From: Caldisericia bacterium
Lineage (GTDB): Bacteria; Caldisericota; Caldisericia; JAAYUI01
Direction of reading: 5' to 3'
Assembly: GCA_017999835.1 (NCBI GenBank)
Contig: JAGNLA010000013.1
Span: forward strand, 1 to 45,652
Length of the DNA stretch: 45,652 bases
Part shown: positions 13,649 through 41,434 of the stretch, in pieces
Position numbering within the stretch: the first letter of the stretch is position 1
Layout of the letters: each line of letters starts with the position of its first letter
Notes under the pieces: generated by a model
What the model was told of the DNA's origin: nothing
What the model saw: the letters and a program-made list of their open reading frames with translations, nothing else
Database searches by the model: none
Position numbers and translations under genes: made by a program

Positions 13649-13724
13649 GCCGAGGTAGCTCAGTTGGTAGAGCAGTGGATTGAAAATCCGCGTGTCGGGG
13701 GTTCAAGTCCCTTCTTCGGCACCA
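13649..13724 (+). tRNA. tRNA-Phe (anticodon GAA), CCA encoded
   Basis: A 76-nt cloverleaf. The 7-bp acceptor stem GCCGAGG pairs with CTTCGGC including one G.U. The D arm is GCTCAGTTGGTAGAGC, the anticodon loop TTGAAAA contains GAA, and the T loop is TTCAAGT. The discriminator A is followed by a genome-encoded CCA. The T stem includes two G.U pairs. A promoter lies directly upstream; no other tRNA is adjacent. Confidence 0.97.
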
Positions 13725-23098: not shown

Positions 23099-26000
23099 GT
23101 GAGCAGGCTGGTTTTTGGAAGATACAGGTTTGACCGACGTATTGGCGGTGGTGGCATGGGCGACGTTTTCCTTGCTACCGATATGCAACACGATGAAAAA
23201 GTTGTTGTCAAAATATCAAAAACGAGATTTGGCGGAAACAGCCGCGATCAGTACAGGCTTTTAGCAGAAGCATCCATGCTTTCAAGACTCGATCATCCAG
23301 GTATTACGAAAGTTTATGACTGCGGCGTGGATAATGACGAATATTACTATGTCATGGAATATATCGAAGGTATCGCGCTTTCTAGTTGTGTCGACTTGTC
23401 AGTCCACGACAGGCTTGAGATATTCCTTGATTGTGCAAAAATCCTCAATCACATCCATAACAACGGCATCGTCCATAGAGACATCAAACCCGAAAACATT
23501 ATCGTTTTGCCAGAAAGAAGCAACACGTCTGGGACAAGGGCAAGGATCATCGATTTTGGTCTGTCGTTTTTTTCTGGAAAATCCAGAATCACCGAGACAG
23601 GACATGTTGTTGGAACTCTAAACTATATGGCTCCTGAATTGCTTATGGGTATTGACTTCGATTACAGAGCAGACCTATTTTCTCTTGGTGTGACAATGTT
23701 CCAGTCTCTGACGGGAAAACTGCCGATGGAGACAAAGAAAGTAGCCAACATTGCGTACAACATTCTCAATTCGTTGCCAGAACCACCATCAAAATATAAT
23801 ACTGATGTCTCAAAAAAAGTTGATCAGATAGTGATTTCACTCATGCGACGTGACCCCAAGGAGAGAACACAGACCGCAAAAGAACTCATTGACCAGCTCG
23901 AAGCAGTTGTCAGCAACGATCAGCATGCATCAACTTCAAGCAATGGCATCACGGTTTCCATCCCGGATCTTTTTGGCCGTGAAAAGGAGATGGATTGTCT
24001 ATTTGACCAATTTGAGCAATCAAGACATTCGTCATGCAGTGTAATTCTTTCAGGGCCATTTGGCATTGGTAAATCCAGATTGGCAGAAGAATTTGCCATA
24101 AAAGCTCAACTTCAGGGAACAATTGTTCTCAGGGCACATGGAATAAGCTCCTCAATCCCAGAACCGCTATTTGGACTTAGACAGCTTTTCTGGCACCTTC
24201 AATATTTCTCGGCATTTGATATCGTAGACAAGAACTCCAGCGAATTCATATCACTTGCGTCCATGAGCCAGGCAATAATGAGCAAGTACAAAGTCAAAAC
24301 TATCAATGTTAAATCCGGAAACACAGACAGACTCGAGGCTTTCAAGGTTATATTGGGCATACTCTCGTCCAAGCACAGAATAGTTGTCTTGATAGACGAT
24401 TTTGACAATATCGACACGGAAACACTTGAAGTATGTTGGTGGATGGCGTCAAATATCGAAGAAAACTTTATGCTGATGCTTACTTCTGATGATCTGGAAT
24501 CGACAGAAATCGACAAGAAAACGGACAAGAAAAATCAGACGATTGAGCTTTCCCCCATTAAAGATGTTGAAGGTTTTATCAAGTCAGCGCTCGATATTGA
24601 CAACATTCCCAAATCTCTTGCTGAATCCATAACCAACAACACCGGTGGTGTGCCAATGCTCATTTTGGATCAACTGAGAACCGATGTCGTTTCCGGAAGC
24701 CTTCACCGTATTGACCATAGCGTTAACTTTGAGCCGGAAAAGGCAAAATCTATCGAGACAAACGATTATGTCTCGGGAATCATAGATACGCTATCGGTTA
24801 AAGAGCGTTTTGTGCTAGATTTTGCAGCTGTTTTCAACAACAGATTCACCTCGGGCATGCTCTGCGAAATTCTTGGCATTGAGCAAATGGAGGTTAATTC
24901 GATTGTCGATGTGCTGGTCAAAAATGGCCTGCTCTCGAGCCAGAATGAGTCTTCGATAGTTTACTACTGGCTTTCAAAACGGTTCATCAACCAGATTCCC
25001 AGGATGGTCAAGCGCGAAGACTACAAGGCATTCAATGTTCTTTTGGCCAGGCATTTCGAGAGTACTTCTCCAACAAAACCGCACTGGATTTTCAAACACT
25101 ACAACATGGCTGACCAGGAGGACAAAGCACTGCAATGGGCAGAGATCACATGTTGGCAGATACTCAACGACAGAAGCTTTGACATCACAACATATCTCGA
25201 CTACATCAAAAAAAACGGAGTTGCACTCAAGGATAAGATTCTATTTTTAAAATCCTCAATCATTGAGGCGCTGCTTGAAGCCAGAGCAGGAAATTTTTTA
25301 CACAGCCTTGAGATGATTGACGAATGCATCCACAATTCAATCCTTTCCCACAAAGACGAATTGCTGGTCAAAAGCATGAAGGTGAAATCGAGAATCCTGA
25401 AATTGGCAAAAAAGAACGCAGAAGCGATAGACGTTGAGACCAATCTGGTGTTTCACACACCCAGAATCTGCAACAACCTTGACGAATATGAATTATTCAA
25501 CTCGCTTTCCGTTCTTCTTCTTCAACAGTACAACTTTCATGGTGCGCTGAAATACGCTAGGTTGGCACAAGAAACATCGAAGAAACTTGATAAAGCCAGC
25601 TTTGAAGATTCAACTTACAAACTCACCACCAGACTCATCGAAAATCAAAGAATCTCCGAGGCTTATTCGCTTGTCAAGGAATACATTGATTCTCCGGAAT
25701 CAAAAGGACAATTCAGGTTGAACATGCTATCGCTTTATCCATCCACGTTGTGGTACAGGGGAGAAATTGATAAGGCTAGCACAGCAATTGGGCAGATCCT
25801 CTCGGAACTGCAGTTCAACCAACTCAACCCAAGAACTATCACTAACTTTGCACAGATAGCACATTCAGCAGGTCACATTCAGCTTTGTCTGGACATTCTT
25901 GAAAGATTAGTTGTGCCAGACAATCAAAAACTCAATCGCATCCTCATTGATTTGTTCAAGCTTGAGATTGATTTTGAAATGAATGGTTGGCAAAATGTCA

Positions 26001-26611
26001 TGACGAAGGTTGAAATGCTTATCAACCTGGCAAAAGATTCTGACACCCACGAGGATGTCGTTCATGGTCTGTTGTTGCTCGGGACAATTGCTTCTCACAT
26101 TCCAAACCTTGAGCTGGCAGCAAAATCTTTCAGGCAAGCCTGGAATATTGTAAAAGACAACAAATACAGCATCACAGTGCTTTATTCCGGATTTATTATC
26201 ATGACAGCAGTCAACCAGCCATTGTTAAAGAATGAACTCAAATCAATCGCTGTAAAAATCTCTGAGATCCCTGAAAAACCTGAAGACAGGATATCGGAAA
26301 TCTACAGAGCAGTGTGCATGGGGATGTCAACAATCATCGATGCAAAAACACCGATTCAGATCAAAGCAGGCTATAAAATTCTGTCTCAGGCAAAGAATGC
26401 TGCCATCTCGTGCGGTCACAAGCAGATTGTGGGATTGCTTGGAAAACTTCTTGGCAAGATGCATTCACAGGAATATAGATTCAGCGGGCTCCCTCAAGAT
26501 AAGGAATTGGCACTCCAAAATTTCTACGAATCAGAATTCATTTATCGTACGACCGGGGCAACCTGGCTTGCAGACTACATTTCAGACATAATGAATAAAA
26601 CAAATCGCTGA
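23099..26611 (+). CDS. Soluble Ser/Thr protein kinase fused to AAA ATPase and helical-repeat regions
   Basis: A 1170-residue cytoplasmic protein with no membrane segment. Residues 8-270 are a complete Hanks-type kinase: Gly-rich loop 16-21, Lys38, the HRD motif at 126-128 followed by Ile-Lys-Pro-Glu-Asn, and Asp152-Phe-Gly. Around residues 290-540 lies an AAA_16/STAND-like NTPase: Phe-Gly-Arg-Glu before Walker A (Gly319-Pro-Phe-Gly-Ile-Gly-Lys-Ser326) and a Walker B-like Val-Leu-Ile-Asp-Asp-Phe-Asp near 435. The remaining ~600 residues are helical with TPR-like pairs. Kinase-AAA-TPR fusions are thought to be large signal-integrating switches. Starting at GTG without a ribosome binding site, it appears leaderless. 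It converges with queA, 5 bases apart. Confidence 0.9.
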   Translation: MSRLVFGRYRFDRRIGGGGMGDVFLATDMQHDEKVVVKISKTRFGGNSRDQYRLLAEASMLSRLDHPGITKVYDCGVDNDEYYYVMEYIEGIALSSCVDLSVHDRLEIFLDCAKILNHIHNNGIVHRDIKPENIIVLPERSNTSGTRARIIDFGLSFFSGKSRITETGHVVGTLNYMAPELLMGIDFDYRADLFSLGVTMFQSLTGKLPMETKKVANIAYNILNSLPEPPSKYNTDVSKKVDQIVISLMRRDPKERTQTAKELIDQLEAVVSNDQHASTSSNGITVSIPDLFGREKEMDCLFDQFEQSRHSSCSVILSGPFGIGKSRLAEEFAIKAQLQGTIVLRAHGISSSIPEPLFGLRQLFWHLQYFSAFDIVDKNSSEFISLASMSQAIMSKYKVKTINVKSGNTDRLEAFKVILGILSSKHRIVVLIDDFDNIDTETLEVCWWMASNIEENFMLMLTSDDLESTEIDKKTDKKNQTIELSPIKDVEGFIKSALDIDNIPKSLAESITNNTGGVPMLILDQLRTDVVSGSLHRIDHSVNFEPEKAKSIETNDYVSGIIDTLSVKERFVLDFAAVFNNRFTSGMLCEILGIEQMEVNSIVDVLVKNGLLSSQNESSIVYYWLSKRFINQIPRMVKREDYKAFNVLLARHFESTSPTKPHWIFKHYNMADQEDKALQWAEITCWQILNDRSFDITTYLDYIKKNGVALKDKILFLKSSIIEALLEARAGNFLHSLEMIDECIHNSILSHKDELLVKSMKVKSRILKLAKKNAEAIDVETNLVFHTPRICNNLDEYELFNSLSVLLLQQYNFHGALKYARLAQETSKKLDKASFEDSTYKLTTRLIENQRISEAYSLVKEYIDSPESKGQFRLNMLSLYPSTLWYRGEIDKASTAIGQILSELQFNQLNPRTITNFAQIAHSAGHIQLCLDILERLVVPDNQKLNRILIDLFKLEIDFEMNGWQNVMTKVEMLINLAKDSDTHEDVVHGLLLLGTIASHIPNLELAAKSFRQAWNIVKDNKYSITVLYSGFIIMTAVNQPLLKNELKSIAVKISEIPEKPEDRISEIYRAVCMGMSTIIDAKTPIQIKAGYKILSQAKNAAISCGHKQIVGLLGKLLGKMHSQEYRFSGLPQDKELALQNFYESEFIYRTTGATWLADYISDIMNKTNR

Positions 26612-28498: not shown

Positions 28499-29182
28499 CT
28501 ACAGATTATTAAGTTCCTGCCTCATGGCGTCAACAGCTGCCTGGAAGAATTCCTCCATTATAGCGTCATTTGCCTGATAATATCCACCCGTGCATCCATC
28601 CCCGAGTAGTTCACGAATTCGGGAAGGCGAGGCTGTTTTTGGCAAAACCACAAATTCTTTCGGTTTATCCGGAACTTTTGAAACTCTTGTAAAGCTGTGG
28701 TTTTCTGACCAGTTTGCATGAGATTGCTTCAAACCATGCTTTATTGCAATCGAATCAACCCTGGGGTCAAGCCACCACTGGAAAAGGCTGATTTTTACTT
28801 TATCATTTTTGGCAAGGATCTCGTCAATAACAAGTGTCAGCACTCCTGAGTTTCCACCATGCCCATTGCTGACAAGAATTCTCCTGAACCCTTGCACAAT
28901 CAGACTCTCAAGGACTTCTCTTATCAAACTGGCATAGGTCTGGATTGAAAGACTGACGTTTCCTGGATAAGCATTGAAAAAAGGGTTAAGACCGTAGGTA
29001 ACAGGAGGGGCAATTGGTATTTTCAAAATCTCACAAGCTTTCTTGGCAATCTCCCACGGTTCAAGGGTGTCGGTTGCCAAACTGAGATAGCCATGTTGCT
29101 CGCACGAACCGGTTACAAGCACGATCCGGTCATCATTTTTAAGGTATTTTTCTACGTCCATCCAGTTCATTTTCTCAAACAT
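28499..29182 (-). CDS. Creatininase-family amidohydrolase
   Basis: A 227-residue protein with the creatininase/MftE/ArfB fold. Gly-Ser-Cys-Glu-Gln-His-Gly and Ala-Thr-Asp-Thr provide Glu, His and Asp metal ligands, and Ser-Asn-Gly-His-Gly-Gly-Asn the His ligand; a later Glu lies in Trp-Ser-Glu-Asn-His. Members hydrolyse cyclic or linear amides, as in creatininase, the flavin-pathway formamide hydrolase ArfB and mycofactocin MftE; the substrate here is not determinable. The ATG at 29182, with GGAAG upstream, is preferred; a longer frame to 29296 would overlap the divergent FHA gene and adds no conserved residues. Confidence 0.82.
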   Translation of the reverse strand: MFEKMNWMDVEKYLKNDDRIVLVTGSCEQHGYLSLATDTLEPWEIAKKACEILKIPIAPPVTYGLNPFFNAYPGNVSLSIQTYASLIREVLESLIVQGFRRILVSNGHGGNSGVLTLVIDEILAKNDKVKISLFQWWLDPRVDSIAIKHGLKQSHANWSENHSFTRVSKVPDKPKEFVVLPKTASPSRIRELLGDGCTGGYYQANDAIMEEFFQAAVDAMRQELNNL

Positions 29183-29254
29183 ATTTGCCACTTCCCATGC
29201 CCAAAATCTGCTTATGTGGAAATGATAACCATATTTGCATAAAACAACAGGCTT

Positions 29255-29263
29255 TGCTATAAT
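29255..29263 (+). promoter_or_regulatory. Extended -10 promoter of the FHA-kinase operon
   Basis: TGC-TATAAT (29255-29263), with no clear -35. GGAGG (29272-29276) and the ATG at 29281 follow, with the same GGAGG-TCAT-ATG spacing as the HsdR-N-like gene. Confidence 0.55.
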
Positions 29264-29280
29264 TTCATCATGGAGGTCAT

Positions 29281-29799
29281 ATGACCGTATGTCCAAAATG
29301 TGGCAGACAGAACATCGATGGTACGATTAATTGCGAATTGTGTGGTACAAGCATGCCATTCAAGCAAGACAATCTGTTTGACAAGATAATCAAAGAATCA
29401 GGTTTGATAAGATTCCCTCACCCACCTAGCACAGTCACTTCCCCCCACCCTGTCATAAGACAACAAACAATTTTAGTTGGCAAGCTAACCCTCAATGACT
29501 CAAAAGATTTCATTTTGTCGGGCAAAGAGGAGTTCCTAATCGGCAGAGCCGACATGATGGCTGGCATAACGCCTGACATTGACCTTACCGAGGCTGACAC
29601 AGAAATGGTGACCTCCCGCAAACACGCAAGAGTGTTAAAAAAAGGCGACACTTATTCCATTGAAGATCTGGAATCCACCAACTTCACTTTTTTAAACGGA
29701 AGGATGCTGTCCCCAAGGGTACCGACAAAACTGGATGAAGGTGACGTAATAAGAATTGGCAAAATATATCTCGTATTCTCAAGAGTAAAAACTGAATAG
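29281..29799 (+). CDS. Zinc-ribbon plus FHA-domain phosphopeptide-binding protein
   Basis: A 172-residue cytoplasmic protein. Residues 1-25 form a zinc ribbon (Cys-Pro-x-Cys-Gly...Cys-x-x-Cys-Gly). A Pro/His-rich linker follows, and residues ~75-170 are an FHA domain: Phe-Leu-Ile-Gly-Arg, then Ser-Arg-Lys-His-Ala-Arg, Ser-Thr-Asn-Phe-Thr-Phe-Leu-Asn-Gly and Asp-Gly-Asp-Val-Ile-like Asp-Glu-Gly-Asp-Val-Ile-Arg-Ile-Gly. FHA domains bind phosphothreonine peptides. Since a Hanks-type kinase gene follows after 45 bases, this protein is the obvious candidate reader or substrate of that kinase. The proposed pairing is inference; the domain calls are directly visible. Confidence 0.92.
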   Translation: MTVCPKCGRQNIDGTINCELCGTSMPFKQDNLFDKIIKESGLIRFPHPPSTVTSPHPVIRQQTILVGKLTLNDSKDFILSGKEEFLIGRADMMAGITPDIDLTEADTEMVTSRKHARVLKKGDTYSIEDLESTNFTFLNGRMLSPRVPTKLDEGDVIRIGKIYLVFSRVKTE

Positions 29800-29844
29800 C
29801 AATAAGCTGTGTAATGGCTGTGAACACTATTTGAGAGGAAAGCA

Positions 29845-32316
29845 ATGGAAAACAGAGTCCTGGTGAAAAAGTACAAACTGCTGGAGCCGCTGGCTTCAGG
29901 TGGAATGGCAACGGTGTATCTGGCAAAAAATCTTGCCACCGATGAAATTGTTGTGGCAAAGATCCCAAATTTTGCCGGACTACCGAACCGGGACAAACTG
30001 GAAAAGCGATTCCTGAGGGAAGCCCAAATCCTTTCGCGAATCCACAGCAAATATGTTGTTAAAATCCACGACTTCGGTCAAGACGAAAACACTCAGGAAT
30101 ACTTCCTCATCCTGGAATACCTCCACGGCAAAACGCTTGAGGAGATATGCGCCAGGGAAAAGCTACCAATCCCAACAATCGTAGACATTGCCTCCCAGAT
30201 ATCCGAAGTTCTTGAAGACCTTTACCAACAGGGCATTGTCCATCGCGACATAAAGTCCAGCAACATCAAAATCACATCTGAAGGCAACATCAAGCTGTTC
30301 GATTTTGGCATCAGCAAGGGCGGCGATCTGCCTGCAATGACGCGTTCAACAGATTTTCTTGGCACCATCCAATACATGTCGCCTGAGCAAACCGAGGGCA
30401 GCGAAGTAGATATCCGCTCTGACATATATTCTCTTGGCATAGTCATTTACGAGATGCTCTTCCAGAAGCTTCCGTTCGACGCTCCCTCGCCTGTTGAAGT
30501 GCTGGAGATGCAAAGAAAAAAGGAACCAAAAATCCCACCGGAAGCAAGAGATCGCAATATTCCTGCATCACTGCTTGCTGTAATGTTTAGATGCCTCGAA
30601 AAGCAACCAGACAAACGTTTCCAGTCCCCTCTGGAGCTTCTGCAGGCGCTCACCCTGGTATCTGAAGAGTTTGGTATCAGCACCAGCGAAAGAGAAGAGC
30701 TCAGAAAAACAAGGCTAACCTCTGTTGCAGCTCTTGGCTCCAGTATCCCTCCTTTTGAAAGGAAACGCAGGAGAAAACTGATAACAACAATAGCTATTAC
30801 GGGTGTTCTTCTGGTAACATCGGTGGCATCGTTTTTTACTCTTCGGAGCTGCCTAAACAAGCCACCAGACCAGATTGATTTCAAGATCGCCCAGGGAGAG
30901 AGGGCGAAGTTTGAAGTTCCCATCACAAAACCTCCGGAAACTGAATCCACAAACGTCACCATCAAAGACGTTCCAACCGAAAAAGGAATTACAGTTTTCA
31001 TCGAAAAGAGTCCAAAGCCCGAAGATGACAACGCCTCGTATTGGATTTTCACCATTTACGCCGGGCTTACAACTGATCCAGGATACTACAGTTTCAAAGC
31101 AAACATTCAAACCATCAAAAAAGGTGGTGTGTCAGATGATTCGCTCAAGGATCTCATCATCGAGGTCGTCAAGGGAAATCTTGGCAGCAAGGCAATAAAA
31201 ATCGTCGCCTTTGAGGAGCTCGATCCAAACGCCAAGCTAGAAACTGCTGTGGACGTTGATGGCAAAATCATGATGCCTCTTGACCCAATAGCTGACGCCA
31301 CCCACGCTTTTGGCAACTATGACCCCAAGGAAAAGAAGTATACCTACAGCACAGCCGACAAAACTGTAGAGTTGGTGGTTGGCAAAGACACCATGAAAAA
31401 CAATGGCCAGGAGCAAAAAATTTCTGATGCGCCCGAGGAAGTCAACGGCACCATGGTTGTCACACCTGATGTTGCCGAAACAGCAACCGACACCGACATA
31501 ACAGTCAGCGACAACAAGGAATTAACTTTTGTCTATAAGGAACCTGGCCAAAAGGTAAAAAATATTGAATTCATCGCATACCAACTAGATGACCAGAACA
31601 AGAAAATTGATGGCGTCAACATTTTCATCAATGGCATCTTGAAGGGCAAAACTCCTTTCAAGATCGAGCTTCCATACGGCAGATACTTCTGCGGTTTTTC
31701 CAAGGACGGCTACAAGGAAGTTGGCAATTATCTGCTCCAGGTGACAGTCAACAGGCGTGAAAAAGAAGAGTTCTATCTGGAAAAAATTACTATTCCAGTG
31801 GAAAAGAAGCCTGAAGAAACAAACAATAACAACACTAATATTAAACCAGAGAAAACAACTGGAACATTGACTTTATCCGTGAATGTCCCGTGGGGTAATT
31901 TCACAGTCAACGGCAAAATCTATGAAAACACTCAGTCAAAGACGCTCGAGCTGCCAGAAGGCGAATACAAGATTGATTATTACTTACCGGTTATAAACCT
32001 GTCAAAATCAAAAACCGTAAAGGTTTCAAGAAACTCGACAAGCAACTGTACCTTTGAGATTGAGTCTGGTGTTCTGGTTGTTAAATCGACAATCGATCTT
32101 GTAATCTACATCAATAATGCTCCACCATCCCTAAATGCTGTTTCTTCTCCAACAAAACCCTTAAAAATAAATATCGCAGCTGGAACATACTCAATAAAAT
32201 CGCTTAAATCGGGGAATTTCTTCTTTGATAATGGTCAGCATGAACAGATCAAAACAGCAGTGGTAAAACCTGGGGAGGTCACAACAGTTGAATTTGTAGT
32301 AACGAAGAAACCATGA
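29845..32316 (+). CDS. Transmembrane Ser/Thr kinase with stalk-like and PEGA ectodomain
   Basis: An 823-residue receptor-like kinase. The cytoplasmic kinase (about residues 9-272) has Lys39, His133-Arg-Asp135, Asp153-Phe-Gly155 and Ser-Pro-Glu at 179-181. A basic stretch precedes the single membrane helix at 312-333. Outside, residues ~340-450 are beta-rich. Residues 452-540 resemble a copper-amine-oxidase-N 'stalk' domain (Lys-Ile-Met-Met-Pro-Leu...; Val-Asn-Gly-Thr-Met-Val-Val-Thr-Pro). Three PEGA-like modules start near 572, 672 and 741. Such ectodomains sense the cell envelope or ligands. The ribosome binding site is GAGAGGAAA. Its last codons overlap the next gene (ATGA), so kinase and secreted cargo are made together. 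Confidence 0.9.
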   Translation: MENRVLVKKYKLLEPLASGGMATVYLAKNLATDEIVVAKIPNFAGLPNRDKLEKRFLREAQILSRIHSKYVVKIHDFGQDENTQEYFLILEYLHGKTLEEICAREKLPIPTIVDIASQISEVLEDLYQQGIVHRDIKSSNIKITSEGNIKLFDFGISKGGDLPAMTRSTDFLGTIQYMSPEQTEGSEVDIRSDIYSLGIVIYEMLFQKLPFDAPSPVEVLEMQRKKEPKIPPEARDRNIPASLLAVMFRCLEKQPDKRFQSPLELLQALTLVSEEFGISTSEREELRKTRLTSVAALGSSIPPFERKRRRKLITTIAITGVLLVTSVASFFTLRSCLNKPPDQIDFKIAQGERAKFEVPITKPPETESTNVTIKDVPTEKGITVFIEKSPKPEDDNASYWIFTIYAGLTTDPGYYSFKANIQTIKKGGVSDDSLKDLIIEVVKGNLGSKAIKIVAFEELDPNAKLETAVDVDGKIMMPLDPIADATHAFGNYDPKEKKYTYSTADKTVELVVGKDTMKNNGQEQKISDAPEEVNGTMVVTPDVAETATDTDITVSDNKELTFVYKEPGQKVKNIEFIAYQLDDQNKKIDGVNIFINGILKGKTPFKIELPYGRYFCGFSKDGYKEVGNYLLQVTVNRREKEEFYLEKITIPVEKKPEETNNNNTNIKPEKTTGTLTLSVNVPWGNFTVNGKIYENTQSKTLELPEGEYKIDYYLPVINLSKSKTVKVSRNSTSNCTFEIESGVLVVKSTIDLVIYINNAPPSLNAVSSPTKPLKINIAAGTYSIKSLKSGNFFFDNGQHEQIKTAVVKPGEVTTVEFVVTKKP

Positions 32317-35033
32317 AGAAATACGTTCTATTGATTGCATGTTGCATGCTCGCCTGCAGCTCGGTTGCAGCACTGGGCTTTCCTTTGTCCTGGTGGCCAT
32401 CGTTTGGGTATGACCAGCAAAAGAATGCCGTCTGCCCCTGGCTTTACGCACCACCGATAATCGAGGATAAAAACTGGGATGTTCAACTCAAATCTGGTGT
32501 CTGGAGTCAGCCTATCGCCACCGATGACAAGCTGTACGTCTTGTCGGTCATCGACGCTTCAAAAAACCAGAAGAGTTCGATCCACACCCTGGGCATCAAG
32601 AACAATTATGGCAAGGAACTGCGATCTCTTGATGTAAGTATTGTCGAATCGGCAAATATTCAGAAATACGATGACGCGCCGGTGGCTACCCCGGCAATAA
32701 CGCCGGCAAGCGATGGCAAAACAATCCTTGTTTTCGGTGACAACGAAGGCAGAATGCTCGTTTACCAGAACGAAACCCTCAAGTCAAACTACACCCTTGG
32801 CATTGGAACCCCCATCTGCACTTCGCCAACAATCTCAGATAACAAAATCTACATCTCAAGTGGAAACAAGCGTACATATATCCTTGATCTTGACGACACG
32901 AGGCTCGTCTATGGCAGCATTCAGACACAAAAGATCGTCTCAACATCTGTAACCATCTGGCAGGATTATGCCATGATGGGCGATAACTCTGGAACATTCT
33001 ATATTTTCGACAAAAATGACGGCAGGGAGATCAAACAAATACCCATCAACAACATCGACACAATCCGGTCCAGTGCCTGTATAGCTACAATCAAAGGCAA
33101 GACCTACGCTGTGTTTGGGTCCAACAAAGGACGGATCCACAGAATTAGACTGGACAGCGGGAACTTTGAAACAGATTCAAAGTTTATCACTCAAGGCTCA
33201 GGCAGCGATGAATTCTGGGCAACACCAACGTTTTATAATGGCTATATCTATATAGGGAATGAAAACAATTTTCTCTATAAAATTGATCTGGAATCACTGA
33301 CCGTCGCTAGCAAAATCAACCTTAACAACTCAATTTTTTCTCAATGTGTCATAAATAACGGTTTTCTCTACATTACAACTGCGAATAGAATAAACAGCAC
33401 CGAAGACTTCAGGGGGTCATTGTTTATTCTCGGCCTCGACAATTTCAAGGTTTTTGGTAGAGAATACACCATTGAAGGTGGAGCCTATGCTCCGCCAATT
33501 TTTGCAGCAAACAGGCTTTTTGTTGCATCAAGAACCGGCAAGGTCTACTGCTTTAAAGGAATGCAGCCAAATGTCACGGTAACGCCTGAGAAGCTCACAT
33601 TTCCGATGATCGCTTACGACGCAAACTCGGTTGACCCAATCAACATCAAGATAACCAATAATACAGATTATACCTACATTACAGGCTCAATAAGGACTGA
33701 GCCGAAAGATACATGGCTTAAGGTTTCAAAACAAACTTTTGATGGGAATTCCACAACATTAAAGGCATGGGTAGACCCTTCTGAAGTCTCAAACCGATTG
33801 GGAACACTTGAGAGCACCATTTACGTTGACTATATTTTTGGCCTAGAGCAAAAAACCATGAATGTCCCGGTCAAGGTTACCTTCGAGCCAAAACCTCCAG
33901 TCTTTACCCTCAGCAGATCAGAGATCAGCATCAAAGGCAAAAATGAAGACGTTATTGAGTCCGTAGGTGTCAACCTCAAGGAATACGATTCAGACCAAGA
34001 GGTCACGTTTATCGCAAAACCAGGCGCTTCATCGGACTGGTTCCGAGTCGAGAATCCAACTTTCGTCCTCAACAAAACAAAATCCACGGCAAGCGTGACA
34101 ATTTCAGTTAAACCCTCCGAATTGATCAAAAAGAACCCCAATGTTTACCAGTACAAGGGTTCGATGGAGATATCCTGTATTTACCGAAACAAACCCACAG
34201 GCACCAAGACTATCATTGTTTCGATGCAGATTGAAAAGGATTTCATAATCGCAGTACCATACATAGAAGAAAAAACCATTACAAAAACTCTGTCTTTTGA
34301 TGAACTTTCGAGGGGGCTGACCGATAAACACACTTTCCATATCATAAACAGAGCCAAGTCAAAAAGCATGTCTATACCAAAACCGCCTGCAATCGACTAC
34401 TGCTCAAGTCCCATAAAAGACTGGATCGTTTTTGAAAAACCGTTTCCACTTGAACAGGATGGAAACTTCAGCATTGACCTAGGAATTGCCGTTGACACAA
34501 AACTGTTCATGCCATGCCAGAATTATTCTGCAACAATAAAGGTTCAGTTCGATACAGGCGAGCCCATTGAGCTGACAGTAAAATATTCAACATCAACAAT
34601 AGACAGGGTAACCATCAAATTTATCATCAATTCAATAACATACTGGGTCGACAATTTGGCTCAATCCAAAAAAATGACTGCTCCACCATATATCTCTGCA
34701 AAAGGCAATACCATGGTTCCAATTCGACCGATTGCTGACACCCTTGGGTACTACTACAACGCTAAAATTACATGGATGGCTGAAATCAAGACAATTACTC
34801 TTGAAATGGGCGACAAAACCCTAAGACTGGTTGTCGGACATAACAAAGCATACATCGACAATCCTGATGGCTCCATCACGGAAACAGTTTTGTCCTCTCC
34901 TCCTGAAATCAAGAATGGTTCAACATTTATTCCCCCAAAAATCATCACCGACACCTTCGGAGGAAAAGCCGGCTGGGAACAAACAACAAAAACCGTAACA
35001 TTTGAGTTTGTCAATCCGAGGTTGAAACAATGA
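32313..35033 (+). CDS. Secreted PQQ-like beta-propeller protein with BACON-like modules and C-terminal stalk domain
   Basis: A 906-residue exported protein. The signal peptide (Lys-Lys, hydrophobic core) ends near residue 20; a Met-Leu-Ala-Cys could act as a weak lipobox. Residues ~30-420 contain WD/PQQ-propeller blades (repeated Ile-Tyr-Ile-Ser-x-Gly-Asn-type strands and a Gly-x-Val-Tyr-Cys motif). Two BACON-like modules follow (Trp-Leu-Lys-Val-Ser near 470; Trp-Phe-Arg-Val near 575). Residues ~770-900 are the stalk domain (Asn-Thr-Met-Val-Pro-Ile-Arg-Pro-Ile-Ala-Asp; Lys-Thr-Ile-Thr-Leu; Ser-Thr-Phe-Ile-Pro-Pro). It overlaps both neighbouring genes by 4 nt. It resembles the protein at 39161-41434. 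Possible surface or ligand-binding partner of the kinase (inference). Confidence 0.85.
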   Translation: MKKYVLLIACCMLACSSVAALGFPLSWWPSFGYDQQKNAVCPWLYAPPIIEDKNWDVQLKSGVWSQPIATDDKLYVLSVIDASKNQKSSIHTLGIKNNYGKELRSLDVSIVESANIQKYDDAPVATPAITPASDGKTILVFGDNEGRMLVYQNETLKSNYTLGIGTPICTSPTISDNKIYISSGNKRTYILDLDDTRLVYGSIQTQKIVSTSVTIWQDYAMMGDNSGTFYIFDKNDGREIKQIPINNIDTIRSSACIATIKGKTYAVFGSNKGRIHRIRLDSGNFETDSKFITQGSGSDEFWATPTFYNGYIYIGNENNFLYKIDLESLTVASKINLNNSIFSQCVINNGFLYITTANRINSTEDFRGSLFILGLDNFKVFGREYTIEGGAYAPPIFAANRLFVASRTGKVYCFKGMQPNVTVTPEKLTFPMIAYDANSVDPINIKITNNTDYTYITGSIRTEPKDTWLKVSKQTFDGNSTTLKAWVDPSEVSNRLGTLESTIYVDYIFGLEQKTMNVPVKVTFEPKPPVFTLSRSEISIKGKNEDVIESVGVNLKEYDSDQEVTFIAKPGASSDWFRVENPTFVLNKTKSTASVTISVKPSELIKKNPNVYQYKGSMEISCIYRNKPTGTKTIIVSMQIEKDFIIAVPYIEEKTITKTLSFDELSRGLTDKHTFHIINRAKSKSMSIPKPPAIDYCSSPIKDWIVFEKPFPLEQDGNFSIDLGIAVDTKLFMPCQNYSATIKVQFDTGEPIELTVKYSTSTIDRVTIKFIINSITYWVDNLAQSKKMTAPPYISAKGNTMVPIRPIADTLGYYYNAKITWMAEIKTITLEMGDKTLRLVVGHNKAYIDNPDGSITETVLSSPPEIKNGSTFIPPKIITDTFGGKAGWEQTTKTVTFEFVNPRLKQ

Positions 35034-37900
35034 AAAAGATGGCGTTTTTATGTGCGTTCATGCTAATGGCCGTCAGCGCACCAGTGACGGTTCCAGAAAA
35101 AGTTGTTGTAGCCTTGGGCACTTGGACACAGGCAAATGGATCACCGATACCCAACTATGACGAATTCAACAGAACCGACGACACAAACGGAACAGTCTGC
35201 GCCACAACAAATTCAGGGAAACCGTACATTTGCTGGAGCGAAAACAAATTTGGAGATTATAAAATTTGCGTTTCAACATCTGATGGAGAAAACTGGCTTC
35301 CCCCTTCAGGTGACACAACTTTCTCAAACTTTGAAGTAATCAATGTTGCCGGAAAATGCACCAACCCATCAATGATCGTCATCGATTATGACGATGGCAC
35401 CACAGCCCAAGACATCCCCATCATTTTTTTTGACCGCAATGACGGAACCCACTATAAATCATGCTGTGCATATTTGAAAGATGGTACCTGGTTTACAAAA
35501 GACTTCACCCGTACAAGCAACCAGGAAGCCAGGCCTTTTGTGACAATTGGGGATGATGACAGGATATACGCCACATGGTGCCAAGGATACTATGGGTACG
35601 ACAGTTTGCCTGTCATTATTGCGGCCGAAATGGATTTTCCCCTGGTATGGAAACATATTGACGGTTCACCGGCAATAAATTCAGCCAATCCAATCTTTAG
35701 CAGCCCTGAATACTTCTATCACAGCCGTGTTGCAATTTTCGATGGCAAACCGATTTTATGTGCTGAATATAAAGAGACAATGTACTCTGATTTTGACATA
35801 GCCATCGCAAAATGGGACGGCGCAAACTGGACAGGATTGACAACACCAGATTTTACAATTATCGGTGACTCTACCTATAGTGACAATTCACCCAGAATTG
35901 CGGTATCGGCCTCTGGTTCACCCATACTTTGCTGGGTGACCGATTACAACGGCGCAAAGAAAACATTCTTTACATATTGGACTGGATTAGGTTGGGCATA
36001 TCCCGGAGGTACAAGCGGTTATCAGAATATTTCCGACTCTTTGTTGTCAGGAGAATCTACTTTCAACGCCGACATGATAATGGGTCAATACAACATTTGC
36101 CACCTTGCCTTCAACATCAGAAACAATAACGTGATATACCTCCAAACCGACCTTGAAGAATGGTTTACGGTTGACAAACAACCAGGAATCACCCTGCTAC
36201 CTTATGGCATTTCAAACCCAAGTCTTGCTTCGTGGATGAGCAATTACCCAATGATTGCCGGAGACCGACTCCTCCCTGCTGACAATCCTGCATTCACAAT
36301 GTATTGGGTCAACCAGAGTTTCTTCGTGGAATGGGGCATCGAAATAAGTCAACCTCCGCACACCATTCTCAGATTTGATGATGACGGCAAAACAATACCG
36401 GCCATTGATAGTCTCACCTACAAACTAAGGGCAATGATCAACATCCCTCAAAGCTACCAGGCAAGCAACATTATTGCAACATACAATGTTCCCACGGACG
36501 GAAAATTCATACCCAATCCATCACTTAACAGTCTACTTTTCTTGGACAAATGGGTATGGCTGCGTAACGGTAAAAACTGGATACAGTTGTCGGTTTTTCC
36601 TCCTCTAAATTCACCTTTATGGGATGAAGTCACCAAAGTGAGGCTACTGATCAATCCAATCGTATTCAAACCAATCATCAGGTTTGACATTGGCTTCAAG
36701 GGTTCGGCACAAAAAGGGAAATGGATGAAAAATCTGTTGGATGTTTCCTTAACTGCGTCAACAAACACCATTTCAAGTTCATTCAACTCCTCCACCCATT
36801 TGCAAGACACAACACAATATTTCTCCAGTACCAATATTGTGTCCAATCCAGTAGGTCAATACATGCCTCCAACCTTCTACCTAAATGTTGACCCTAATTC
36901 CGGAACGATATCTACTGACGGGGGAAAGACGGCATATTTTACCGTATACATCATCCCTGTTGGATTATTCCTTGATGATGTACTGTTAAGCATGCCACAG
37001 CAGGGCGTTTATGGTCTTGCACCCAATTTTGGCAACACACAGGTGCCAGGCAGGCCAGGCATCAGATCAACAACCCTCGCAATAAAAGGTACAAAAAAAA
37101 CACCAAGAGGGCCACTGGATGTAAAAATTCAAGGCGACAAGGTAGACTCTTCGTCCTATGGCGGAATAAATTTGCATTCAACAGCTTCAATATCCGAATC
37201 CGATGCATCTGCATACACAAATGTAAGGCTAGATGTCGAAAGAGCACAGTTGCTCCTTTCAAAGAAAGCCGACAGGGTGAACGTCCAGCCAAACTCTGTG
37301 ATCACATACACAATCACCATCAGAAACGTGGGTGGGGCAACAGCCTACAGCGTGTTCCTCAAAGACATCCTTCCAGAAGATGTCGACTACCTGAGCTCAT
37401 TCCCGACATCAGCAGTCTCAGGCAAAACTGCCTCATGGGACGTTGGCGACATCCCCCAAAACAAATCAGTAATTTATACCATAAAAGTCAGGGTTAAGGA
37501 CATATTTTTCTCATCCGGTTCGACAATTTCCAATGTTGCTACGGCTGAATACGACGGTTGGCTCACCTCTTCGACAACAGTATTCGTAACTGTCAGACCG
37601 GCAGAAACGCCATGCCCTGCACCTCAAGCAGAGATAAGGTTCGAAACCGACGGAAAAGACCCCCAGGCTGGCATAGAAATAAAAGGCAAACTTCGAATCT
37701 GGGATGGCTGCAGCCCATACAAATTCCAGCTATTTTGGGGCGATGACACGGATGAAGATTTTGGGCATCTCGACCAAGAAGGTTACTATTCGCTTCCTCC
37801 TCACACCTACGCAACAAGCGGCACCTATTTCCTTGTATGCTACATTACAGACAAATATGGAAAACAAAACGTTATCAGAAAGCAGATGGTCGTTCACTGA
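35030..37900 (+). CDS. Secreted beta-propeller-like protein with DUF11 and PKD-type C-terminal domains
   Basis: A 956-residue exported protein with a signal peptide ending near Val-Ser-Ala at residue ~20. Residues ~30-430 look like a sialidase-type (Asp-box-like) six-bladed propeller, with recurrent Ile-Cys-Trp-Ser-Glu and Tyr-Ala-Thr-Trp patterns. A long beta-rich linker follows. Residues ~733-860 are a DUF11/'conserved repeat' module (Ile-Thr-Tyr-Thr-Ile-Thr-Ile-Arg-Asn-Val-Gly; Leu-Pro-Glu-Asp-Val). The end is a PKD-like domain (Trp-Gly-Asp-Asp-Thr; Thr-Tyr-Ala-Thr-Ser-Gly-Thr-Tyr). No stalk domain or cell-wall anchor is visible, so it may be released or bound non-covalently. Coupled to the previous gene by ATGA; its end overlaps the convergent exonuclease gene by 7 nt. 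Confidence 0.85.
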   Translation: MKKMAFLCAFMLMAVSAPVTVPEKVVVALGTWTQANGSPIPNYDEFNRTDDTNGTVCATTNSGKPYICWSENKFGDYKICVSTSDGENWLPPSGDTTFSNFEVINVAGKCTNPSMIVIDYDDGTTAQDIPIIFFDRNDGTHYKSCCAYLKDGTWFTKDFTRTSNQEARPFVTIGDDDRIYATWCQGYYGYDSLPVIIAAEMDFPLVWKHIDGSPAINSANPIFSSPEYFYHSRVAIFDGKPILCAEYKETMYSDFDIAIAKWDGANWTGLTTPDFTIIGDSTYSDNSPRIAVSASGSPILCWVTDYNGAKKTFFTYWTGLGWAYPGGTSGYQNISDSLLSGESTFNADMIMGQYNICHLAFNIRNNNVIYLQTDLEEWFTVDKQPGITLLPYGISNPSLASWMSNYPMIAGDRLLPADNPAFTMYWVNQSFFVEWGIEISQPPHTILRFDDDGKTIPAIDSLTYKLRAMINIPQSYQASNIIATYNVPTDGKFIPNPSLNSLLFLDKWVWLRNGKNWIQLSVFPPLNSPLWDEVTKVRLLINPIVFKPIIRFDIGFKGSAQKGKWMKNLLDVSLTASTNTISSSFNSSTHLQDTTQYFSSTNIVSNPVGQYMPPTFYLNVDPNSGTISTDGGKTAYFTVYIIPVGLFLDDVLLSMPQQGVYGLAPNFGNTQVPGRPGIRSTTLAIKGTKKTPRGPLDVKIQGDKVDSSSYGGINLHSTASISESDASAYTNVRLDVERAQLLLSKKADRVNVQPNSVITYTITIRNVGGATAYSVFLKDILPEDVDYLSSFPTSAVSGKTASWDVGDIPQNKSVIYTIKVRVKDIFFSSGSTISNVATAEYDGWLTSSTTVFVTVRPAETPCPAPQAEIRFETDGKDPQAGIEIKGKLRIWDGCSPYKFQLFWGDDTDEDFGHLDQEGYYSLPPHTYATSGTYFLVCYITDKYGKQNVIRKQMVVH

Positions 37901-39160: not shown

Positions 39161-41434
39161 TCAGGGGCAGCCTGCAATAGAGATCTTAACGGTTTTTGTT
39201 TGGGCAGCATAGTCGACGCTCGCACCAAAAGAAACGCTTATGAATCTGACCGGGACGAGCGTTCTCCCACTTACCACCAACGGTGGGGGAGATATCTTCA
39301 CCTCTTTGCCATTGATGTATGCCTTTTCGTTGTTCAACTGAAGAACCACCACATCGCCTTTACCGGTTTTGTAGGTGATTTTCTTTGTTTTTGCATCATA
39401 CTCCATCTTTACGCCAAAGGCATCGCCAACAAACCTAAGCGGGACAAATGTTGAACCCTTGATTATCGCAGGCGGAGGATCGACTGTAAGCTCCTGATCG
39501 TTTATATATGCTTTCTTGTTGTTAATCTGCATTGAGATGTTGAGCGCCTGGGTTACACCGGTCACAGTCACTTCGAAAACCTTTATGTAGAGATTCGAGG
39601 TAATCGTGACTTTGCCAGTGTAAACACTGGTGTTGTGAAGCGCTTGCGCATTAATTGTGATTCGAACACCAGGGTCTGTGTCATGAAATGCTGCCGGTGA
39701 AACCATTATCCATGGAACACTCACCGAAACAATCCCGTGATTGAAACCTTTCAAGGTTATATCCTTTGCCCATGTTGCAGCATCGGAACAGGATATCGAA
39801 GCGCTTTCCTTGGAATTTGTCGGCTGTGCGGCTCCACCAAACGAAGCTTTGACCGTAACAGTCGCCTTGCCACCAGAAGAGGTTATTGTGATTACGCCCT
39901 GATTTTCACCAATCTTCATGTCTTCTGGCTTAACAATGACTATGACTGAATTGTTATTTCCCTGAAACCGTGATGAACCAAAAGAAATCCAGGGGACGTC
40001 CGAGGACAAAGAACCTTGAAGTTCGCCAGCGCCTGAGTTTTTGATTTTAAGTATCTTTGTTATGTTTTCTTTGGAATTGACGTATCCAATGTCAAACTCA
40101 TCATTGTCAACTTCTACTTTGGGTTTGGGCACACCCTTGTTTGTGTAACAAACATAACCATAAATACCTTTTCCATGAGTGTCCACGGTTTCAAACCCCA
40201 TTACAAGATACTCTGAGTTTACAGCAAGCTCTGATGGATTCGACAATCCCGAGACGACATCAGACCAGAGCAATGCTCCGGTGGATGGGTCAAAAGCCCT
40301 AAGTTTTGTTGATCTGCCTGATGCATCTTCAGTCATTGTAAACATTGCATTGGCCGTTACTGTGCAAGTGTAGCCTATATCGCTGTGTTCAAACTTTGAT
40401 GTATCTTGAATTTGTGTCTCCCAGATAGTTCTTCCTGTTGCAAGATCAAGGCAGAGAGCTTTCTTCAACTCGGCGAGCGCAAACGAACCTCTTGAGATCA
40501 CATACACTTTGCCCGACATTACCGCAGGAGTACTGCCGGAACTCTGACAATTTTCATCCTCGGACACATAGCCGGAAATTTTCTTTGTCCAGATGACCGA
40601 ACCGTCTTCTTGATTTACCAGTCTGAGGTTGTCATTGATTGAGTTGCACAAGACTCCCTTGTCGGTACCGACTATATACGTTCCTCCTGCAATCTTGTCA
40701 GACAGATCAGTGTGCCATTTTTCTGAACCAGTCTTTTTGTCAATTGCATAAAGAGTTTTGTAAATTGCACTGTAAATATTGCCATCCCTTACACAAAACC
40801 AAGGAGGATAGTAGGCTTTTGGATACGAATAGCTTTTGCGCCATAAAAGTCTGCCGTTTTCAGCAGAGTTTGCCTGATAGAAGAATATTCTCTCGTCAAT
40901 TTCAGTCTTCTTCTCATCTTCCTTCCAATCAGTGTAGGAGAGAGAATACACAATATCATCCTCTATTACAGCATGTGAAGTATATCTTGGCCACTCGATA
41001 TCCCAAACAACAGTTTTGTCCATGGAATTGATTCTTCGTATCCATGACCTTCCCTGCTTTGTGTCGTATCCCTGAACAATCAGATCCGAGCTGTACATGC
41101 CCCAGATCCACCAGCCACCTTCCATTTTCCACGCTATATCACCAGTATCGAGATTCCTCTTTTGAATCTCCAGTTCCCATGAGTTGCCTGCCGGCATTTT
41201 GGCCATTCCAAGATAACAAGCACTTCCCGAAAGAAGTGGCGGAACAGCATAGACAGATCCTTCCATGTTTGTATCCCAGAGGTATTTGAGTGGTGGCGTC
41301 AATCCGGCGCTGCTGTAATGCCTGCGATCTGCAGTGCCACCAGCAACTGGCCAGGAACCTGTTGCTGCCTGAGTATACCCAAACTGACTCAGCAACACGA
41401 CCATCGAAACGACTAACATGGCAAATTTCTTCAT
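39161..41434 (-). CDS. Secreted PQQ-like beta-propeller protein with BACON-like modules and C-terminal stalk domain
   Basis: A 757-residue exported protein, signal peptide cleaved near residue 24 (Thr-Gln-Ala-Ala). A PQQ-type propeller covers residues ~30-440, with blade motifs such as Leu-Tyr-Ala-Ile-Asp-Lys-Lys-Thr-Gly-Ser-Glu-Lys-Trp and Leu-Cys-Leu-Asp-Leu-Ala-Thr-Gly-Arg-Thr-Ile-Trp-Glu. Two BACON-like modules follow (Pro-Trp-Ile-Ser-Phe-Gly near 470; Pro-Trp-Ile-Met-Val near 570). The stalk domain, from ~630 to the end, has two halves, each with Asn-x-Lys-Ala-Tyr-Ile-Asn, then Pro-Pro-x-x-Ile/Val and Val-Pro-Leu/Val-Arg-Phe. It is a closer match to the consensus than the 906-residue relative. 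Promoter at 41452-41481. Confidence 0.9.
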   Translation of the reverse strand: MKKFAMLVVSMVVLLSQFGYTQAATGSWPVAGGTADRRHYSSAGLTPPLKYLWDTNMEGSVYAVPPLLSGSACYLGMAKMPAGNSWELEIQKRNLDTGDIAWKMEGGWWIWGMYSSDLIVQGYDTKQGRSWIRRINSMDKTVVWDIEWPRYTSHAVIEDDIVYSLSYTDWKEDEKKTEIDERIFFYQANSAENGRLLWRKSYSYPKAYYPPWFCVRDGNIYSAIYKTLYAIDKKTGSEKWHTDLSDKIAGGTYIVGTDKGVLCNSINDNLRLVNQEDGSVIWTKKISGYVSEDENCQSSGSTPAVMSGKVYVISRGSFALAELKKALCLDLATGRTIWETQIQDTSKFEHSDIGYTCTVTANAMFTMTEDASGRSTKLRAFDPSTGALLWSDVVSGLSNPSELAVNSEYLVMGFETVDTHGKGIYGYVCYTNKGVPKPKVEVDNDEFDIGYVNSKENITKILKIKNSGAGELQGSLSSDVPWISFGSSRFQGNNNSVIVIVKPEDMKIGENQGVITITSSGGKATVTVKASFGGAAQPTNSKESASISCSDAATWAKDITLKGFNHGIVSVSVPWIMVSPAAFHDTDPGVRITINAQALHNTSVYTGKVTITSNLYIKVFEVTVTGVTQALNISMQINNKKAYINDQELTVDPPPAIIKGSTFVPLRFVGDAFGVKMEYDAKTKKITYKTGKGDVVVLQLNNEKAYINGKEVKISPPPLVVSGRTLVPVRFISVSFGASVDYAAQTKTVKISIAGCP

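Follow-up and report, generated by a model that had tools for sequence, protein, structure and literature searches.

The window analyzed here, by which we mean the whole 45,652-nucleotide stretch of the contig, comes from a genome of 1.89 Mb in 28 contigs (G000) and was taken to belong to the class Caldisericia. Four genes lie in one run on its forward strand, with a layout that follows exactly from the open reading frames and the DNA and that agrees with the description given in an earlier note: a 45-nt gap separates the gene of an FHA protein from that of a receptor kinase, and ATGA stop/start overlaps read directly in the DNA join the kinase gene to gene 3 and gene 3 to gene 4. The features of the locus are the following.

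29234..29263, +, promoter-like site TTTGCA-18-TATAAT with TG before the -10 element, directly 5' of the FHA start codon (consensus match only)
29281..29799, +, gene 1, soluble zinc-ribbon and FHA protein of 172 aa (ORF and Pfam)
29404..29457, +, linker motif LIRFPHPPSTVTSxHPxI, FHA protein residues 42-59, invariant (orthologue alignment)
29533..29784, +, FHA domain with invariant G88, R89, S112, H115 and N134 (Pfam E 3e-14; orthologue alignment)
29845..32316, +, gene 2, Hanks-type receptor Ser/Thr kinase of 823 aa (ORF and Pfam)
29845..30654, +, cytoplasmic kinase domain with invariant K39, E59, HRD 133-135, DFG 153-155 and T166/T174 (Pkinase E 5.4e-47)
30781..30849, +, single transmembrane helix, with RKRRRK just before it (sequence and hydropathy)
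30856..31179, +, Ig-like N-terminal part of the ectodomain, residues 338-445 (predicted fold, moderate confidence, Z about 8)
31249..31518, +, stalk domain (PF07833, Cu_amine_oxidN1) in the kinase ectodomain (Pfam 7e-11)
31612..31779, +, PEGA domain, residues 590-645 (Pfam 4e-6)
31855..32313, +, two more PEGA/CnaB-like beta domains, residues 671-823 (model pLDDT mostly 70-90; CnaB-type matches)
32313..32316, +, ATGA overlap between the kinase gene and gene 3 (read in the DNA; a 4-nt overlap in four relatives)
32313..35033, +, gene 3, secreted protein of 906 aa with PQQ propeller, Ig-like domains and C-terminal stalk (ORF and Pfam)
32379..33566, +, beta-propeller region of gene 3, PQQ_2/ACSF4/BamB-like (profile matches)
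34665..35000, +, C-terminal stalk domain of gene 3 (Pfam PF07833 1e-23, over the cut-off)
35030..37900, +, gene 4, exported protein of 956 aa in which DUF11 and a PKD-like tail accompany degenerate repeats of propeller type (no counterpart at the locus in relatives)

A GGAGG Shine-Dalgarno sequence follows the promoter-like site ahead of the FHA gene, and the gaps between the four genes contain no terminator-like site among those listed, all of which are consensus matches and not evidence of function. Upstream, the neighbor of the FHA gene is a gene of the creatininase family that runs divergently (28499-29296); the sister genus has in this place a tyrosine-recombinase gene (L041:15443-16744), co-oriented with the FHA gene and 55-56 nt away from it. 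Elsewhere in the window, a tRNA-Phe (GAA) at 13649-13724 is the sole Rfam or ARAGORN match, and a second Hanks kinase (23099-26611), soluble and fused to an AAA_16/STAND-type ATPase, has a homologue of 29% identity on the contig that bears the first three genes in G001 and G004.

Products of the four genes

The five phosphothreonine-binding residues of the FHA protein are invariant across its orthologues, and so is its zinc ribbon (CxxC-x10-CxxC), even though the latter scores below the Pfam cut-off. The linker motif LIRFPHPPSTVTSxHPxI reaches 89% identity, versus 12-25% in the linker just N-terminal to it, and is absent from all other open reading frames of the loci scanned; it is a candidate phosphosite or docking motif, the former by analogy with proteins of the GarA type. 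The product of gene 1 resembles GarA, OdhI and FhaB in being small and soluble and in having, ahead of its FHA domain, a conserved segment that contains Thr; it differs from them in its zinc ribbon and in the segment itself, which reads PPSTVTS, where GarA has an ETTS motif. Scores of gene 1 against the equivalog models of the GarA/OdhI/FhaB type fall far under their cut-offs.

In the kinase, the catalytic K and E, the HRD and DFG motifs, the activation-loop Thr and the P+1 loop are all intact and invariant in five orthologues. Hydropathy reveals a single peak, at residue 311, and the extracytoplasmic part beyond it carries Pfam matches; the Pkinase, stalk and PEGA matches, together with the one transmembrane helix, bear out the kinase with a stalk/PEGA ectodomain described in the earlier note. 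The stalk scores over the Pfam cut-off for PF07833 and its predicted fold is D1-like: in an AlphaFold model of the ectodomain, which was built on a five-sequence alignment and is of moderate quality (mean pLDDT 58), model residues 135-211 match domain D1 of the E. coli amine oxidase (Z 8.4, rmsd 2.3 over 69 residues) and model residues 334-485 match CnaB-like domains. Pfam recognizes PEGA at residues 590-645 only, and two PEGA stretches in an orthologue. The NCBIfam model with which the kinase domain scores best is that of the PASTA kinases PknB/PrkC/Stk1, at 255 bits against a cut-off of 450 for NF033483 and over the kinase part only; Pfam finds neither PASTA repeats nor a propeller domain in gene 2, and the propeller sits in the next gene.

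The kinase tree joins the window kinase to tandem kinase-kinase-TM proteins, at their second kinase domain (support 96/87), in a part where long branches are flagged and may join falsely. These tandem receptor kinases (L082:8271-11273, L089, L092, L051 and L091) combine two kinase domains, one transmembrane helix and a stalk ectodomain, the stalk being matched by HMM in four of five complete proteins and in L091, which a contig end cuts, and confirmed with Pfam in L082. Because the tandem kinases that group with the window kinase carry stalks, this group may have had its ectodomain stalk from early on. Downstream of the tandem kinases lies a conserved gene set.

For gene 3, profile searches support an exported propeller protein made up of a PQQ-type propeller, Ig-like domains and a stalk. 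The propeller match of the PQQ/ACSF4 type (E 4e-24) lies under the cut-off of that model, and PQQ_2 is over its own. Gene 3 is not BamB by the equivalog model, which it matches with 40 bits against a cut-off of 423 and over a partial propeller only. Gene 4 is likewise exported, and its DUF11 domain scores over the Pfam cut-off, whereas PKD is matched weakly. Against an HMM of blade repeats built from related proteins, including the repeats of an 865-aa protein of relatives, the N-terminal half of gene 4 reaches 21.7 bits, and the maximum in 1000 shuffles is 8.8; the AlphaFold model of the N-terminal 480 residues has a pLDDT of 30, and a PDB sequence search with the N-terminal alignment gave no match. 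Hence, of the two secreted propeller proteins announced in the earlier note, gene 3 stands, and gene 4 is an exported protein with blade-like repeats for which a propeller fold, suggested by these repeats, is less certain and unconfirmed.

Conservation of the locus within the family

Conserved co-occurrence is found for three of the four genes. The FHA, kinase and gene 3 trio keeps its order, its strand and the 4-nt overlap between kinase gene and gene 3 in all four same-family genomes (G001-G004), and is thus not scattered among relatives, whereas gene 4 is absent from the locus there and its homologues are dispersed. Other genes of the wider region are also syntenic between the window genus and the sister genus, so that the order of the trio within the family is only modest evidence. 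Identity to the window proteins in the four genomes amounts to 63-67% for the FHA protein, 51-52% for the kinase and 33% for gene 3; by domain, the kinase and FHA domains are 76-81% identical (kinase 80%, FHA 76-79%), against 24-49% in the exported parts, of which the stalk is the best conserved (in gene 3, stalk 49%, propeller 36% and Ig-like region 24%). Conserved intracellular and divergent exported parts make up a pattern that suggests, at the level of sequence, a constant output with a changing input.

No orthologue of gene 4 is found at the locus in the four same-family genomes, none of which belongs to the window's own genus. Its matches elsewhere, in the DUF11/PKD tail and weakly in the repeats, are to dispersed exported DUF11/PKD proteins. 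The 865-aa DUF11/PKD protein that relatives (e.g., G001) carry some 7 kb away from the trio was considered as an orthologue and rejected, because it has a close homologue in G000 on contig C11 (48% over 822 aa). Judged by this gene content, gene 4 is a local addition outside the conserved module; it would be an exported passenger specific to the lineage, co-expressed by virtue of its place in the operon.

Kinase and stalk genes across the class

Beyond the family, several lineages of kinases again place the gene of a secreted stalk protein after that of a membrane kinase. In five genomes, of the families here termed f3 (G006, G010 and G018) and f5 (G008 and G016), the operon reads FHA, PP2C, PEGA kinase and secreted stalk protein; the f3 stalk partners carry NHL propellers, and those of f5, of about 270 aa, have no detected propeller. 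The window genome itself harbors a second locus, on contig C17, in which a kinase/AAA ATPase protein is followed by a PEGA kinase and then by an NHL-propeller/stalk protein, an arrangement shared by G002, G003 and G004, and in G020 and G024 FHA genes, PP2C and kinase precede a stalk protein with an SBBP or PQQ propeller. In the f4 genomes (G007 and G037), FHA, PP2C and kinase genes lack a downstream stalk gene. Since f4 lacks this gene and the f5 partners lack a detected propeller, the propeller is not obligatory. No strong kinase match was obtained in five genomes from other classes of the phylum.

The linkage was counted over co-directional neighbors within 100 bp, the gene after the kinase being scored for a stalk domain. 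A stalk gene follows a membrane kinase in 16 of 25 pairs, usually with a propeller, and a soluble kinase in none of eight; the corresponding background is 3/280 for other pairs in kinase regions and 8/190 in random regions (20 sampled 20-kb regions of three genomes). The 25 pairs, one of which (L079) was counted negative though cut by a contig end, are not independent, because many are orthologues. At the level of lineages, four of eight have a linked stalk gene (binomial P 1.9e-4 at a background of 4.2%), with the reservation that the eight were grouped by hand after seeing the data, guided by the kinase tree, and may not be fully independent. The linked lineages are the window trio and the C17, f3/f5 and G020/G024 types; those without a linked stalk are the tandem kinases, the f2 kinases, G023 and L103 of G002.

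These counts bear on the question of what the secreted protein does beside the kinase. Stalk domains are abundant, with at least 117 PF07833 matches in G000 and 106 in G008, versus 28-31 in G006 and G019, and the pairing of kinase and stalk therefore needs no specific partner. The stalk/propeller protein might thus be an output or client of the kinase, that is, an envelope structural protein without any part in sensing, whose dose would follow that of the kinase because the two are co-transcribed and translationally coupled. Many stalk proteins are found in the genome, several of them with propellers and away from kinases, including that at 39161-41434 of the window, and kinases have neighbors with different kinds of propeller (PQQ, NHL, SBBP or none detected), which would suit envelope proteins that can replace one another. 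On the other side, only membrane kinases show the linkage, and some kinase ectodomains themselves contain a stalk domain; we regard an output role as rather unlikely, if the strongest of the alternatives.

Less probable still is that happenstance accounts for most of the arrangement of the four genes, with members of an abundant exported family often landing in operons and being carried along by regional synteny. Stalk domains are present in about 5% of sampled genes (17/321), synteny is general across the region between the two genera and gene 4 is clearly a local addition; nevertheless, both the pair and the lineage counts exceed chance at that background, and the order FHA, PP2C, kinase and stalk is common to f3 and f5. 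The class-wide linkage largely contradicts happenstance in the case of gene 3; in that of gene 4, happenstance holds. Finally, the secreted proteins are very unlikely to be decoys that bind envelope ligands (e.g., glycans) in competition with the PEGA/stalk ectodomain of the kinase: both the kinase and gene 3 have a stalk domain and hence could share a ligand, but the two stalks are only about 30% identical.

Signaling model and known systems

Set against these alternatives, the reading that we tentatively prefer, at somewhat under even chances as a whole, is that the trio constitutes a transmembrane Ser/Thr-kinase signaling module with a separate propeller as its sensor, the FHA protein as its readout and gene 4 as a passenger. 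That the trio is one functional signaling module is probable. In such a module, the secreted propeller would be the variable sensing part, gene 3 would attach to the ectodomain of the kinase by way of its conserved terminal stalk, and this association would alter the dimerization or activity of the kinase. The kinase would then autophosphorylate on threonine, in the T166/T174 region, and recruit the FHA protein, with the invariant PPSTVTS linker as a possible phosphosite that switches the latter. The step from kinase to FHA protein is plausible because the catalytic, activation-loop and phosphothreonine-binding residues are invariant and because of the known biology of both families, and we consider it somewhat likelier than the contrary that the FHA protein binds the phosphorylated kinase or is a substrate of it. 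Action of the secreted propeller through the kinase ectodomain is a possibility that we would hold at less than even odds, and action through the stalk domains specifically is unlikely. The most elaborate version, in which Caldisericia possess split receptor kinases whose exchangeable secreted propeller docks via paired amine-oxidase-type stalks and whose state is read by an FHA protein with a phospho-switch linker, appears improbable in full. If the linked propeller is indeed the sensing half, the locus would provide a clear case of a Hanks kinase with a separate secreted extracellular sensor, and would give a role to the stalk domain PF07833, of which this genome holds more than 100 copies.

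The earlier note knew of no described system with this gene set; to say that none exists would be too strong, given that FHA/PP2C/kinase clusters, PknD and AfsK-type kinases are known (PMC1262709, PMC6213207). By 2005, both gene clusters that combine FHA, kinase and phosphatase and kinases bearing PQQ or WD propellers had been described (PMC1262709), and the same work cites such clusters in M. tuberculosis. As in those clusters, the FHA gene of the window adjoins a membrane kinase gene and its phosphothreonine-binding residues are intact; in contrast to them, the trio has no PP2C and a secreted stalk/propeller gene follows the kinase. The single PP2C_2 match in the genome (G000:C28:16831-17340) lies beside other kinases, and an operon PP2C is present in G006, G007, G008, G010, G016, G018 and G037. 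Because the f3 and f5 operons read FHA, PP2C, PEGA kinase and stalk protein, the window gene set seems to be a version of the FHA/PP2C/kinase cluster already known, its propeller being carried by a secreted polypeptide of its own.

M. tuberculosis PknD, a receptor kinase with an extracellular six-bladed propeller (PMC6213207, PMC3601408), resembles the window system in having a Hanks kinase domain, one transmembrane helix and a propeller-based extracytoplasmic region, and FHA proteins serve as phospho-readers of such kinases in M. tuberculosis. The propeller of PknD is, however, fused to the kinase, whereas the window encodes it as a secreted protein of its own, and Ig-like, stalk and PEGA parts form the ectodomain of the kinase. 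In a similar manner, Streptomyces AfsK, a PQQ-repeat kinase (PMC1262709), the model of which matches gene 3 weakly, associates a PQQ-type propeller with a Hanks kinase, but again as a fusion; the receptor kinase of the window has a single TM helix and a different ectodomain, and its propeller is unfused. In the open-access PMC literature, no paper was found to contain 'Caldiserica' together with 'serine threonine kinase', and PEGA-domain kinases were the subject of no title. FHA proteins of other architectures also occur in the class: that of G007, beside a PP2C-kinase pair (L045:9818-11482), is fused to a trypsin-like protease domain, and one of G020 (L081:2783-4858) has a VWA domain.
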